Shown here: piece by piece, positions 4,311-36,243 of the stretch
Layout of the letters: each line of letters starts with the position of its first letter
How positions within the stretch are numbered: position 1 is the stretch's first letter
NCBI GenBank assembly: GCA_002839855.1
Contig: PGYV01000008.1
Location: forward strand, 124,001-188,000
Direction of reading: 5' to 3'
Source of the DNA: Candidatus Goldiibacteriota bacterium HGW-Goldbacteria-1
Lineage (GTDB): Bacteria > Oederibacteriota > PGYV01
Length of the DNA stretch: 64,000 bases
Translations under genes and position numbers: made by a program
The notes under the pieces: model-generated
Told to the model about the DNA's origin: nothing
The model's input: only the letters and a program-made list of their open reading frames with translations
Databases searched by the model: none

Positions 4311-4718
4311 ATGGCTGTTGAATGGAAACCGGAAATGTCGGTGGGTATAGGCGAAGTGGATGTGCAGCACAGAAAGATTATCGGCAAATTAAAGGAACTG
4401 TCTGACGCGCTTGAAAAAAAAGAAGAGCCTGAAACCGCGGCGGGCATCCTTAAATTTCTTGCTGTTTATATTGAAGAACATTTCAGGACAGAAGAAATGT
4501 TTATGCTTAAATATATATATCCGGATTTTAAGGAACATCAGGAAAAACACCTGGGCTTTCTAAAGCGTATCACGCTGCTTTACGATGAACTAAGCACGGG
4601 TAGTATAAAAGGCGATGATATTTATAATGAAAGCATAGCGGTGTATAACTGGTTTGTACTGCATATAGAAAATACCGATAAAAAGATGGGCGCTTTTTTA
4701 AGGGGCAAAATAAGATAA
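4311..4718 (+). CDS. bacteriohemerythrin
   Basis: 135-residue single-domain hemerythrin, an oxygen-binding non-haem di-iron protein. All seven ligands are present: His20 in DVQH, His57 and Glu61 in HFRTEE, His76 and His80 in HQEKH, His118 and Asp123 in HIENTD. Length is normal for the stand-alone bacterial form. Its place between c-di-GMP genes and sensor kinases suggests a role in oxygen sensing or delivery/scavenging, but no fused output domain is present. RBS AAGGGGCG precedes the ATG. Confidence 0.95.
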   Translation: MAVEWKPEMSVGIGEVDVQHRKIIGKLKELSDALEKKEEPETAAGILKFLAVYIEEHFRTEEMFMLKYIYPDFKEHQEKHLGFLKRITLLYDELSTGSIKGDDIYNESIAVYNWFVLHIENTDKKMGAFLRGKIR

Positions 4719-30333: not shown

Positions 30334-31635
30334 TTGACTGAAGATGAAAGGCTTCTTGAAGCTGCGGAAAAGGGAGACCTTGATGCCGTGAAAGAGGCCG
30401 TAAAAAACGGCGCGGAATTCTATAATGTGGCTATGTTAAAAGCCTCTAAAACAGGCAGCCTTGACGTTATAAAGTATCTGCTGCGAAAAGGCGCGAATAA
30501 TATTCCGGACGCGCTGAAAATGGCGGCAGCCTGCGGCCATGAAGAAACTGTTAAGTACCTGCTGAATAAAACGGATTCAGGATTAAACACGGCGGTTATG
30601 GCTGCGCTGGAAAGCGGCCATAACAATACCGCTGCAATAATGTTAAAAAGCGGTTCGGGAAGCCCGCGTGAACTTCTGGGCTTTGCTTATGACAACAGCG
30701 ATATGGCTTTATATAATGATGTAAAACAAAAGGCGGGCAGAAAATTTACTGTGCTGCTTAAATCTGTTTTAAGCGGAAGGTTTAACGGCGCTAACCGGCG
30801 GCTTGCGGATGAAAAACTTGAAGAATTATTGAATAATGATGATGAAGTGAAATTAACAGCGGTTTTGGACGCGGGGTTTGACCCTGACCACGTAATATTT
30901 TTTAATCAGAGTATTAAAGCGCCGCTTATCCTGTGTGCTTTAGTTGGGGGTAAATTAAAAGCGGGAACGGCGGTTTTAAAACACAAACCTGAAGCGGGAT
31001 TAAAAGGTTATATCTTTTTTAAAGATGAAGAGAAAGAAATTTCTGTTTTTGACCTTCAGAATGTTGAAAATGAATCTTTGTTTGGTCCGGTTTTACTGCA
31101 GGGATATGCAGGGCTTATCAAAACCCGGCCGCTTGAGGTATTAAAAGCGGCTATGCGCGGCGGTAATGAACCTGTGCTGGAAAAAATACTGCGCAATAAA
31201 TCACTCTTAAAGATTTCAGGCGGTGATTTTATTACAGCTGCGCTGCTTGCAGAAAAAAGGGCCCTTGCCGGACGGCTTATTCAAAGCGGAGCTGAATTTA
31301 CGCAGGCAAAGTTTTACACAAAAGAGCAGTACCTGGCAATAGCAATGCTTGCGGATAAAAACGACACAGTAATGCTTTACAGCCTAAACTCCGCCGGGCT
31401 TACAAAGAGGCGGGTAAAATATGATGTAAAGAAAAGCTGGGAAATACCGCTTGTAAAGGCGGCTTTTGACCGGAATTACAGGCTTTTATCTTTGCTGGTA
31501 AAATATTTTTTTGACCCCAATGAAAAAATCAGCGGTGAGACTACACCGCTGTCTTACTGCTCCGTAAACGGGGCGGATATTAAAGCTTTAAGCATACTAA
31601 AACGCCGTGAAGAAAAAGACGGCCAAAACCAATAA
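30334..31635 (+). CDS. ankyrin-repeat protein
   Basis: 433 residues. Ankyrin repeats at the N-terminus are clear (LLEAAEKGDLDAVKEAVKNG; LKASKTGSLDVIKYLLRKGA; KMAAACGHEETVKYLL) with degenerate repeats through the rest. No signal peptide, so cytoplasmic scaffold. TTG start has CGGAGGG upstream. The next gene, an ATP-grasp fusion, starts 17 bases after its stop, suggesting they act together. Confidence 0.85.
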   Translation: MTEDERLLEAAEKGDLDAVKEAVKNGAEFYNVAMLKASKTGSLDVIKYLLRKGANNIPDALKMAAACGHEETVKYLLNKTDSGLNTAVMAALESGHNNTAAIMLKSGSGSPRELLGFAYDNSDMALYNDVKQKAGRKFTVLLKSVLSGRFNGANRRLADEKLEELLNNDDEVKLTAVLDAGFDPDHVIFFNQSIKAPLILCALVGGKLKAGTAVLKHKPEAGLKGYIFFKDEEKEISVFDLQNVENESLFGPVLLQGYAGLIKTRPLEVLKAAMRGGNEPVLEKILRNKSLLKISGGDFITAALLAEKRALAGRLIQSGAEFTQAKFYTKEQYLAIAMLADKNDTVMLYSLNSAGLTKRRVKYDVKKSWEIPLVKAAFDRNYRLLSLLVKYFFDPNEKISGETTPLSYCSVNGADIKALSILKRREEKDGQNQ

Positions 31636-31651
31636 AGCTCCGGAGGTAATT

Positions 31652-34207
31652 ATGAAAGACAGCACGGGAATACCGGGACTTGATAAAATATTAAAAGGGA
31701 TAATTCCCGGCGATAATATTGTCTGGCAGACGGATGTGCTGGAACATTTTCTGCCTTATGTAAAACCATACTGTGCTTACGCGAAGTCGGAAAACAGAAA
31801 ACTGATATATTTTCGTTTTTCCGGACATACGCCTTTTGCCTCTGAAGCGGACGGCGCGCAGGTGCATGTGCTTCGCCCCGAAGAGGGATTTGAAAAATTC
31901 ATAACGCAGATGCATGATGTCATAGGGAAAACAGGGGACGGCGCTTATTACATATTTGATTCGCTCTCTGAACTTGCCGTACAGAACTTCAGCGAAAGCA
32001 TGATAGAAAACTTTTTTGTGCTTACCTGTCCAAGGCTTTTGAAAATGAAGTGTATCGCGTATTTTGTGGTGACCAGCAACCTGAATTCATATCACGCCAC
32101 AAAGCCGATAACAAAGACCACGCAGCTGATACTGGATATATACAGCAGGGACGGCCGCGACTACATTCAGCCGGTGAAGGTTGACGGCAGGTATTCTTCG
32201 GATATGTTTATGCTTCATGAACGCGCGGGGGATGATTTCTTGCCGGTTATGAACAGTTCTGATATCGCGGAAATATCCGCGTCCGAGCCGTGGTATGGGC
32301 TGCAGTCGGCGCCTTACCGGGCTGTGGGGCTGTGGGACAGGCTCTTTATAGAATCTGAAGATGTTATAGAATCGTGCAGGCGCGGGGAATGTTCTCTTGA
32401 TACGGTTAACGCGATATATTTAAGGCAGTTAAAACAGATTTTTTCAACTGATGAAAGAATGCTGGAAATGGCAAAAAAGTTTATTGACCTGCCGGAACTG
32501 ATACGCATATGGAAGCGGACAATAGGCACGGGAATGATTGGGGGCAAATCCGCCGGAATGCTTCTGGCGCACGCTATTTTAAAAAAACATTTTTCGGAAT
32601 ACGCCGGAATCATTGAAAAACATGATTCTTTTTATATAGGTTCCGATATTTTTTATTCTTTTCTTGTGCGTAACGGATGCTGGCACATAAGGCAGCAGCA
32701 GAAAGACCCGGCCACCGTTTATGAACATCTGGAAGAAGCCAAAAATCTTATTTTAAACGGAAAGTTTCAGGAAAGTGAGAAACAGAAGTTTTCGGACATG
32801 CTGGATTATTTTGGGCAGGCTCCTATAATTGTCCGTTCAAGTTCGCTTCTTGAAGACAACTTTGGCAACGCGTTTTCCGGGAAATACGAAAGCATCTTCT
32901 GCGTAAACAATGGCACAAAAGAACAGAGGCTTGAAGAGTTTTTAAAAGCAGTCCGTGTAATCTACGCCAGCACTATGTCTGAAGAAGCGCTGGCTTACAG
33001 GGCAAGGCGTAATGTCCTTGATATGGATGAACAGATGGCGCTTTTGGTGCAGAGGGTTTCCGGAACAAGGTATGAAAATATATTTATGCCGCATCTTGCC
33101 GGCGTGGGATTTTCCTATAATTCCTATAAGTGGGATGAAGACATTGACCCGTCTTCCGGGCTTATACGCCTTGTGTACGGGCTTGGAACCAGGGCCGTTG
33201 ACAGGCATGACGATGATTACACACGGATAGTGGCGGTAAATGCCCCGAAAAAAAGGCCGGAAGGTAATCAAACTGATACGGTAAAGTTCACGCAAAAAAG
33301 AGTGGATGTTCTGGACATTCAGAAAAATGAACTGAAAACGGAGTACTTCACTGATATTATCAAAGAAAACCCGGGAGTAAATCCTGAAATGTTTTCGGTG
33401 GAAAAGGAATTCAACGAAACCCGGTACAGGATAATTAATTTTGATACGGTTATATCAGGCACGGAATTTATAAAAGACATGGGCAAGATGCTGCGCATAT
33501 TAAGGGATAATTATGGCAGCCAGGTGGATATAGAATTTACCGCGAATTTCACGCCGGATAAAAAGTACAGGATAAACCTGCTTCAGTGCAGGCCTCAGCA
33601 TGTCAGAAAGGAAAGCGGAACTTCAAGCATGCTTCCTGCCGCGGATGAAGAAAGAATAATTCTTAAGTCTAAAGGCGGGCTTGTGGGGCAGGGGCGGACA
33701 ATTAAAGTGGACAGGATAATATATGTGGTGCCGGAAATTTATGGGCTGCTGCCCGAACAGGAAAGGTATGCTGTGGCACGGCTGGTGGGAAGGGCCGCTC
33801 ATTTTAAAGAAGAAGCGGGTAAAAATATAATGCTCTTAGGGCCCGGAAGGTGGGGCACGCGCATGGTGCAGCTTGGCGTGCCGGTTGTATTTTCGGAGAT
33901 TAACACGGTATCTGTAATATGCGAAATTGGCAGAATGCATGAAGGCCTTATCCCTGACCTTTCCATGGGAACGCATTTTTTTAATGACCTCGTGGAAATG
34001 AATATTCTGTATATTGGATTCTTTGCGTCGTCGCAGGGTAATATATTAAATGAAAAGTTTCTGCATTCGCTGCCTGATAGTTTTGCGCAGATATTTCCCG
34101 GAGAAAAAAATTATGGTGGCGCCGTCAGGGTGATAGAAAGCGATGATTTAAAGATATATCTTCAGGCGGATCCTGTGAAACAACAGTGCCTGGTATTTGC
34201 CGGATAA
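31652..34207 (+). CDS. KaiC-like (P-loop lost) / PEP-synthase ATP-grasp fusion protein
   Basis: About 851 residues from the ATG at 31652, which has CGGAGG upstream; the longer frame from 31607 overlaps the ankyrin gene and is less likely. The N-terminal ~230 residues open like KaiC/RadA (TGIPGLDKILKGIIPGDNIVW), but the Walker A GxxGxGK(T/S) is absent. Residues ~300-680 match the PEP/pyruvate-binding ATP-grasp domain (GMIGGKSAGM; PIIVRSSSLLEDN; LLQCRPQ). The swivelling phospho-histidine and TIM-barrel domains of PPDK/PPS are missing. Instead a ~190-residue tail with LLGPGRWGTR follows. It probably binds ATP and a phospho-acceptor, but not as a classical PEP synthase. Confidence 0.82.
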   Translation: MKDSTGIPGLDKILKGIIPGDNIVWQTDVLEHFLPYVKPYCAYAKSENRKLIYFRFSGHTPFASEADGAQVHVLRPEEGFEKFITQMHDVIGKTGDGAYYIFDSLSELAVQNFSESMIENFFVLTCPRLLKMKCIAYFVVTSNLNSYHATKPITKTTQLILDIYSRDGRDYIQPVKVDGRYSSDMFMLHERAGDDFLPVMNSSDIAEISASEPWYGLQSAPYRAVGLWDRLFIESEDVIESCRRGECSLDTVNAIYLRQLKQIFSTDERMLEMAKKFIDLPELIRIWKRTIGTGMIGGKSAGMLLAHAILKKHFSEYAGIIEKHDSFYIGSDIFYSFLVRNGCWHIRQQQKDPATVYEHLEEAKNLILNGKFQESEKQKFSDMLDYFGQAPIIVRSSSLLEDNFGNAFSGKYESIFCVNNGTKEQRLEEFLKAVRVIYASTMSEEALAYRARRNVLDMDEQMALLVQRVSGTRYENIFMPHLAGVGFSYNSYKWDEDIDPSSGLIRLVYGLGTRAVDRHDDDYTRIVAVNAPKKRPEGNQTDTVKFTQKRVDVLDIQKNELKTEYFTDIIKENPGVNPEMFSVEKEFNETRYRIINFDTVISGTEFIKDMGKMLRILRDNYGSQVDIEFTANFTPDKKYRINLLQCRPQHVRKESGTSSMLPAADEERIILKSKGGLVGQGRTIKVDRIIYVVPEIYGLLPEQERYAVARLVGRAAHFKEEAGKNIMLLGPGRWGTRMVQLGVPVVFSEINTVSVICEIGRMHEGLIPDLSMGTHFFNDLVEMNILYIGFFASSQGNILNEKFLHSLPDSFAQIFPGEKNYGGAVRVIESDDLKIYLQADPVKQQCLVFAG

Positions 34208-34907: not shown

Positions 34908-34936
34908 TTGACTTATTTCAGGAACTGTAGTAAAAT
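34908..34936 (+). promoter_or_regulatory. strong promoter of a structured RNA
   Basis: TTGACT (34908-34913) and TAAAAT (34931-34936) with the ideal 17-base spacer. The start of transcription would be near 34943, immediately upstream of three GNRA-capped hairpins and an intrinsic terminator. This is one of the best promoters in the window. Confidence 0.75.
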
Positions 34937-34942
34937 ACATTC

Positions 34943-35069
34943 AAATGAAGCGAAAGCTGACACAGATCGGAAGACTGGGCAAAGAGTAGGCGGGAAACCG
35001 AAGACTAATTGAAAAGTAATCCGGGGTTTATAAATCCAAAAGGTTTATAAATTCCGGATTTTTTATTTT
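34943..35069 (+). ncRNA. candidate structured small RNA or leader with intrinsic terminator
   Basis: From the predicted start near 34943 there are three short hairpins closed by GNRA loops: AGC-GAAA-GCT (34949-34958), CAG(A)TC-GGAA-GACTG (34963-34977) and CGG-GAAA-CCG (34991-35000). The last is flanked by AGT/ACT with an AGG/AAG internal loop that could form sheared G-A pairs. A ~19-bp terminator stem with T run follows (35018-35069). The RNA is ~127 bases. It precedes a 21-codon ORF and a PilZ-like gene. No known riboswitch consensus was matched by eye; it could be a riboswitch, attenuator or free sRNA. Confidence 0.6.
35018..35069 (+). terminator. strong intrinsic terminator
   Basis: AATCCGG, two G-T wobble pairs, TTTATAAA and CC pair with GG, TTTATAAA, TT and CCGGATT (left arm 35018-35037, right arm 35042-35060; bases 38-41 form an AAAA loop, T35 bulges). 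A T-rich tail ATTTTTTATTTTA follows. It ends the candidate structured RNA. Confidence 0.9.
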
Positions 35070-35095
35070 ATAACTTAAATAAAAGGAGGTATGTC

Positions 35096-35161
35096 ATGGA
35101 AAACCCTGATAATGAAAGCAGCGGCATACCGTCCGGCGGTACGGGGCCGTATCCTGCTTAA
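35096..35161 (+). CDS. small ORF, 21 residues, with strong RBS
   Basis: ATG at 35096 with AAAGGAGG ending six bases upstream, an ideal spacing. It encodes 21 residues beginning MENPDNESSG and ending GPYPA, with no hydrophobic part. It sits between the terminator and the PilZ-like gene (which starts 34 bases after its stop). It may be a small protein or a leader peptide for the downstream gene. The strong RBS is the only evidence of translation. Confidence 0.5.
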   Translation: MENPDNESSGIPSGGTGPYPA

Positions 35162-35195
35162 TAAACCCGCCTGAAAAATTAAAGGAGGGACAACA

Positions 35196-35567
35196 ATGAT
35201 TTTCACAGAAATTTTTACGCCGGGATTAAAAGTTAATAAAATTCTTGAAAATGTAACAGTTTCATTTTCGCGCATTGATGAGGTAAATAAAGAAGGAGCT
35301 TTTAAAAAACGCGTTCCGCTTATGCTTAACGCTTATGGTATGAAAGTTCACGGTGATCAAAGCTTGGAAAAAGGCGAGATGGTTCTTGTGGATATTGTGT
35401 GCGGCGAAAATAATACCGTGACGCTTATCGGGGAAGTCGCCGGGGTGAAAAAGCAGAAAGCCGGGGAGGCGTATGAGAATTCTATCGATTTTATCCATAT
35501 GAGCCTTTCGCAAAAGTACCTGCTGAATAAAATCTTAACTGATTTAAAAACAGGCAGGTTGTGTTAA
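35196..35567 (+). CDS. PilZ-like domain protein
   Basis: 123 residues. The pattern KKRVPLMLNAYGMKV...LEKGEMVLVDI and IGEVAGVKK...ENSIDFIHMS follows the PilZ fold (short N-terminal basic stretch, beta barrel, C-terminal helix SQKYLLNKILTDL). The canonical c-di-GMP motif pair RxxxR and DxSxxG is not well preserved, since LNAYGM replaces DxSxxG, so ligand binding is uncertain. RBS AAAGGAGGG precedes the ATG. It lies in the transcription unit following the structured RNA, which makes it the likely regulated gene. Confidence 0.6.
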   Translation: MIFTEIFTPGLKVNKILENVTVSFSRIDEVNKEGAFKKRVPLMLNAYGMKVHGDQSLEKGEMVLVDIVCGENNTVTLIGEVAGVKKQKAGEAYENSIDFIHMSLSQKYLLNKILTDLKTGRLC

Positions 35568-35678
35568 AAACGGCGGCGATGCCGCAGCAAATTACAGGGA
35601 CCAAAGCGGTTTTAAAGACATGACCGGTTTAAGCCGGATCCTGTTAAAAGAAACACGGTAAAAAAACGGAGGTGTGCC

Positions 35679-35849
35679 ATGAAAAAAATGAATGAACAGG
35701 AGACAAAAAATAACAAATTTTTTATAGACTGCAAGTATGAAGCGGATAAATATACGGAAAAGGGATGGGAAGTAAAGGAGGTAAGTTTCTGGGATTACGG
35801 CGGGCCGACATATTTGCTTGTTAAAAAAGACAAAAGAAGGGAAAATTGA
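35679..35849 (+). CDS. small ORF, 56 residues
   Basis: ATG at 35679 with CGGAGGTG upstream; encodes 56 residues (starts MKKMNEQETKNNKF, ends KKDKRREN, stop TGA 35847-35849). The part EKGWEVKEVSFWDYGGPTYL then KK is reminiscent of DUF4177-like short domains in which GW.....Y.L.K recurs. No signal peptide. Function unknown. It is the third ORF after the structured RNA. Confidence 0.62.
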   Translation: MKKMNEQETKNNKFFIDCKYEADKYTEKGWEVKEVSFWDYGGPTYLLVKKDKRREN

Positions 35850-35999
35850 AAAATGCAATGAAAAAAAGCACATAAAATAATCGTGTTAAAAAGAGCCATT
35901 TTTACCCCGATAATTAATGAATGATATTGAGGCAGGATGTGGAAAGGCAAAAAACGGCAGGTTTTTATTCTTTTTAACATGATTCCGGGAAAATTACTC

Positions 36000-36028
36000 T
36001 TGCCAAACGCTTTTCATTATGATATTTT
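36000..36028 (+). promoter_or_regulatory. promoter of rpsF operon leader
   Basis: TTGCCA (36000-36005) and TATTTT (36023-36028) with a 17-base spacer. A start near 36034 would coincide with the first strand of a long base-paired leader. Confidence 0.55.
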
Positions 36029-36033
36029 ATCTC

Positions 36034-36206
36034 TCCACGGCATAAGTATGTTCTTTTACGTATTACAGGTGCGTTAAGGGCTGTTTATGGCGTGGAACCT
36101 TGCGAAGCCAAATTTATTTGGCTTGATAAAGCCGGGTGTTTTCCATCTAAAAACACTTGGATTTATCTGTATTTTTATTGTATTAAGGCGGATAATAATT
36201 TACGCC
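36034..36206 (+). promoter_or_regulatory. structured 5' leader of rpsF operon
   Basis: No gene lies in 35850-36243, but several hairpins do. TCCACGGCATAA (36034-36045) pairs with TTATGGCGTGGA (36085-36096) at 11 of 12 positions, enclosing a smaller hairpin 36046-36051/36058-36063. Then AGCCAAA/TTTGGCT (36106-36123), GGTGTTTT/AAAACACT (36135-36157) and GGCG/CGCC (36187-36206) follow. Many bacteria have an S6-S18-binding leader upstream of rpsF, so autoregulation is likely, though I could not match the known consensus. Confidence 0.5.
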
Positions 36207-36243
36207 GAAAAAAACATTTTTATGAAACGAAAGGAGTCACTGA

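Follow-up and report, generated by a model that had tools for sequence, protein, structure and literature searches.

A conserved rod-shaped leader RNA, probably a transcription attenuator, before rnk-type and accessory speE genes in Goldbacteria

The window, the whole stretch of 64,000 nucleotides analysed here, comes from Candidatus Goldiibacteriota bacterium HGW-Goldbacteria-1. It contains a short leader with its own promoter, followed by three small open reading frames (ORFs):

34908–34936, forward strand: leader promoter TTGACT-17-TAAAAT; promoter-like counterparts precede the other copies
34949–34958, forward strand: short GNRA hairpin AGC-GAAA-GCU (hairpin 1), from folding; its third pair varies between copies
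34968–35023, forward strand: rod (antiterminator) of 56 nt, with 3-bp helices, mostly purine internal loops and the tip CGG-GAAA-CCG
35018–35060, forward strand: intrinsic terminator of 19 bp, whose base AAUCCG (35018–35023) overlaps the closing strand of the rod
35061–35070, forward strand: U-tract, where the terminated leader is expected to end
35096–35161, forward strand: 21-codon ORF with a strong ribosome site; three of the four genus copies keep its start and first codons
35196–35567, forward strand: PilZ-like protein of 123 aa that lacks the usual c-di-GMP motifs
35679–35849, forward strand: 56-aa protein, function unassigned; its G002 counterpart has 62 aa, is 64% identical and is followed by speE

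A preliminary description of this DNA had proposed a near-consensus promoter with a 17-base spacer, an RNA of about 127 nt that ends in a strong 19-bp terminator, and three downstream ORFs with strong ribosome sites. All of these were confirmed; a U-tract follows the terminator, and the ORFs have 21 codons, 123 aa and 56 aa. The window leader folds better than all of 200 shuffled sequences (z −6.1). Five of the six copies of the RNA described below have the layout of an attenuator, in which a promoter, a leader and an intrinsic terminator precede a gene. In the genus copies, the first gene begins about 20–30 nt past the terminator with no further promoter between them, and the gap from terminator to ribosome site leaves little space for a second one.

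The 21-codon ORF may be incidental. Inside it, GGCAUACC can pair with GGUAUGUC/GGUAUGCC at the ORF's own ribosome site, in the window (35085–35136) and in the same-genus genome G002 (L039 region 4358–4488). The start of the ORF might be masked by this hairpin, which showed no clear gain over shuffles in two of three copies. The naming of the next gene as PilZ-like is weak. Pfam gave nothing for the window protein, and an orthologue matched PilZ with an E value of 0.0022, below the cut-off (18.8 against 22.5 bits). In a structure search with the window-type protein (mean pLDDT 61), many of the top PDB matches were PilZ proteins, but the best E value was 0.18. The usual c-di-GMP motifs of PilZ are RxxxR and (D/N)xSxxG, and both were absent on reading two aligned PilZ-like sequences. 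An 866-aa protein encoded at 31607–34204 of the window combines PPDK_N (PEP-synthase-type ATP-binding, E 2e-48) with a weak KaiC-like start. This unusual fusion is kept in G002 and in the close relative G001.

The preliminary description had divided the leader into three GNRA hairpins. This architecture gave way to a single long rod that overlaps the terminator. The supposed middle 'GGAA hairpin' forms the 5' strand of the rod, and the third hairpin, CGG-GAAA-CCG, is the rod tip and not a domain of its own. Hairpin 1 (AGCGAAAGCU) is present, but its third pair is gone in two of the four genus copies and it is only a side element; it is not recognisable in the copies of G003, a genome from another family of the same order. 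In the genus, the rod reads GGA[AG]ACU[GGG]CAA[AG]AGU[AA]GCGG-GAAA-CCGC[AG]ACU[AA]UUG[AAA]AGU[AA]UCC, where brackets mark internal loops and a short stem topped by a GAAA loop forms the cap. Relative to this pattern, the window rod has lost one pair of the top stem. When folded without the terminator, all four genus copies form a single long stem; one of them had first been folded without its last bases, and its stem closes once they are included. None of 2000 shuffles gave an unbranched stem of 16 bp over the full length.

Comparison among copies lends this fold moderate support. Of the pair cells in the six-member alignment, 91% are standard, and five pairs have changed on both sides; six sequences with few compensatory changes make a small set, however, and the alignment had been made to fit the model. 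Two of the five pairs belong to hairpin 1. Within the rod, CAA/UUG is replaced by CAU/AUG and AGU/ACU by AAU/AUU, and one more compensatory change lies in the top stem. The GGA/UCC and ACU/AGU helices are so far invariant. None of 500 shuffles reached as high a pair score, and sliding the strands by 1–3 columns abolishes it. The window and G002 are 95% identical in the rod and 71% in the PilZ-like gene; upstream of the promoter, identity is about 18% in a poor gapped alignment. Thus the collection of homologues, which the preliminary description had named as a check, did yield covarying pairs and shared downstream genes, in two families.

The six members occur in three Goldbacteria genomes from two families of one order. 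The window genome carries a second copy (82% identical), G002 carries two copies, and two in G003 were found via a covariance model. No further member was found in the other 381 of the 384 genomes searched or in viral contigs. An exact scan for the outer motif in GTDB species genomes gave, beyond the G002 and G003 contigs, ten unrelated matches, which is close to the chance estimate. The one of these ten that scored best with the covariance model, in Shapirobacteria (26 bits), was discarded, as the pattern itself had selected it, one of its helices is broken and it lacks the top. Weak matches of model R1 in other genomes (18–23 bits) were likewise set aside, as model R2 did not recover them. 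Every copy was compared with Rfam at gathering and loose thresholds, and only chance matches were returned. The earlier statement that the RNA fits no known class therefore holds at the level of covariance models, including those of the rnk/greA leader families. Judged from these searches, the RNA is a conserved family absent from Rfam.

In the close relative G001, contig C92 ends and contig C32 starts (L103, L097) between the porin gene and rpsF. An apparent IS element lies at the break, exactly where the leader and its genes would be expected. Because the contigs break there, the absence of the window locus from G001 carries little weight.

The genes behind the leader are partly shared between the families. 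The leader precedes a short GreA/Rnk-family gene in G000-C1, G002-C127 and G003, and not at the window copy. The G000 rnk-type protein matches GreA_GreB (E 1.6e-18), and the rnk-type proteins match the nucleoside diphosphate kinase regulator PRK05753 with E values of 3.1e-24 and 8.1e-28, below the curated cut-off. Among 45 genomes of the phylum, a short Rnk-type protein is clear in three, the same three that hold the RNA. Further matches of the Rnk search were weaker and mostly of GreA length, some of them unassigned, and model R2 found no rod in the genomes of the more distant ones. In the genus, a K+/H+ antiporter gene and mpsC (DUF2294) precede the rnk copy (L038 4406–6264; L040 4297–6155), and G003 has mpsC between rnk and speE2 (L095 7318–7686). 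The association of mpsC with rnk is thus kept across the families despite rearrangement.

The second shared gene is an accessory speE for spermidine synthase, called speE2, which is an extra speE copy in G002 and G003. In G002, the window-type copy is followed by the small ORF, the PilZ-like gene, a 62-aa ORF and, after 11 nt, speE, so that the PilZ-like gene is part of the speE operon. G003 has leader, rnk, mpsC, a second leader and speE, in this order. In both families, the RNA thus stands before an rnk-type gene and before an accessory speE or its operon. The speE2 genes group on a tree with support of 98/97, to be read with caution given long branches. In the genomes inspected, a speB-like gene follows the main speE, and none of the examined loci of the main speE has the leader. 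The whole polyamine pathway was therefore rejected as a target. In the window genome, no speE follows the 56-codon gene and the main copy is the sole speE found; 35850–36243 of the window has none, while G002 has speE between the 62-aa ORF and rpsF (L039 5097–6294). An apparently recent loss of speE2 in the window genome is the simplest reading.

The strand that closes the rod, UCC(G) at 35020–35023, is also the base of the terminator. Since this strand is common to both, a closed rod and a full terminator are mutually exclusive. Each of the five leaders with a terminator keeps this overlap; the G003 terminator stem is divergent except for its base, AAUCC/GGAUU. In computed folding of the transcript up to the rod end, the rod is closed in all five. 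At full length, the minimum is the terminator in all five, and forcing the rod to stay closed costs 3.2–5.1 kcal/mol, in thermodynamic energies that ignore transcription speed and non-standard pairs. The closing helix is likely the switch, because the terminator displaces nothing else of the rod.

We therefore read the leader as a cis-acting transcription attenuator poised between rod and terminator, with a probability of roughly 0.75, and it probably decides whether the downstream genes are read. In the model, RNA polymerase would first make the 56-nt rod, and its closing helix GGA/UCC would shut. While the helix stays shut, the terminator would lack its G+C-rich base and polymerase would read through. 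If the helix opens, the 19-bp terminator would form and an RNA of about 127 nt would be released. The model predicts regulated readthrough, in which stabilisation of the rod would turn the genes on. Of the original idea of a terminating riboswitch or attenuator, the terminating leader survives, along with homologues, covariation and the same genes in two families, but the three-hairpin architecture and the link to c-di-GMP do not. One member fits the attenuator poorly. The speE2 copy of G003 (L043 547–641, reverse strand), which starts inside the mpsC end, has no terminator and one broken rod pair. It would have to act otherwise, perhaps on translation, or be decaying.

Two kinds of signal seem likeliest, and about equally so: autoregulation by a Rnk/Gre-type secondary-channel protein, as in GraL, or a cation- or polyamine-linked signal. 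Each would be a sub-case of the attenuator. If a small molecule or ion is sensed, the rod with its mostly purine loops would be an aptamer that binds a polyamine, a precursor of one or a metal ion, and the ligand would close the rod and switch the genes on. This is possible rather than probable. It would suit the position of speE2 downstream of the leader in both families, as well as loops and helices kept across wide protein divergence (38% identity for rnk, 48% for speE2), and the antiporter and mpsC neighbours hint at ion homeostasis. However, the main speE beside speB lacks the leader in every genome examined, a spermidine ON switch would amount to positive feedback, and the G003 copies vary in their internal loops, which is not expected of a tight binding pocket. 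It is doubtful that the RNA represents a new riboswitch class, with a one-stem sensor of 3-bp helices and purine mismatches that responds to a polyamine-related molecule or ion and controls a Rnk-type regulator and an accessory spermidine synthase.

Alternatively, the Rnk-type protein or another RNA polymerase factor would alter termination in the leader and set its own level and that of speE2. We hold this equally tentatively. The RNA and the short Rnk-type gene co-occur in the same three genomes, and E. coli GreA acts through the GraL leader to repress its own gene, for which the terminator and the sequence preceding it are both needed (PMC6829880). GraL action required catalytically active GreA, however, and was seen in vivo only (PMC6829880), and such autoregulation leaves the sharing of the leader by speE2 unexplained. 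By analogy, Rnk feedback would explain the rnk copies, whereas a cation or polyamine signal would better explain speE2.

Outside the attenuator, the leader could be a trans-acting small RNA with an unregulated terminator. At least four copies have their own promoter and a strong terminator, each genome has two of them, a pattern also seen in some small-RNA families, and GraL also acts in trans. We consider this unlikely, given genus genes that start so close behind the terminator without another promoter, the placement before rnk and speE2 across families, and the strand common to rod and terminator. A c-di-GMP or other known riboswitch class in unusual form is very improbable: a PilZ-like gene does lie downstream in two genomes, but Rfam gave no gathering-score match and none of these classes, c-di-GMP models included, even loosely, the PilZ-like protein lacks the motifs, the rnk copies have no PilZ-like gene and no counterpart of it was found in G003, and the genes shared across families are rnk and speE2.

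The attenuator reading, if right, adds an uncatalogued family in a little-studied phylum, for which no riboswitch paper was found in the literature searched. It also joins an accessory spermidine synthase with an rnk-type gene in a single RNA-controlled group, in two families whose gene order differs. Should a polyamine or a Gre-type protein prove to be the signal, the rod would offer a simple one-stem model in which to test how termination is set by such signals.

Several known systems resemble the proposed switch. RAT antiterminator hairpins, which are bound by BglG/LicT proteins, are imperfect hairpins that overlap a terminator. The overlap is alike, but the rod is about twice as long, and no PTS gene or BglG-type regulator lies beside the copies examined. 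Terminating ON riboswitches, the fluoride class among them, use one strand both in the helix that closes the sensor domain and in the terminator. The strand sharing is again alike, whereas the rod has no sequence or structure match to these riboswitches and no pseudoknot was seen. The published spermidine riboswitch, a close variant of the SAM aptamer (PMC10853860), shares the link to polyamine genes. Identity with it was rejected, as the rod RNA has no SAM-I-type aptamer match and Rfam gave none to the SAM clan. The nearest precedents are the rnk/greA leaders of Proteobacteria and Firmicutes, which have clear antiterminators, with no common feature reported (Naville & Gautheret 2010, PMC2965389). 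These leaders, GraL included, likewise place an antiterminator and a terminator before a greA/rnk-family gene and release a short RNA. The Goldbacteria RNA differs in its sequence, its long rod, its lack of an Rfam match, its phylum and its additional position before an accessory speE or its operon. By this analogy, it probably acts in the same mode as the rnk/greA leaders of other phyla.
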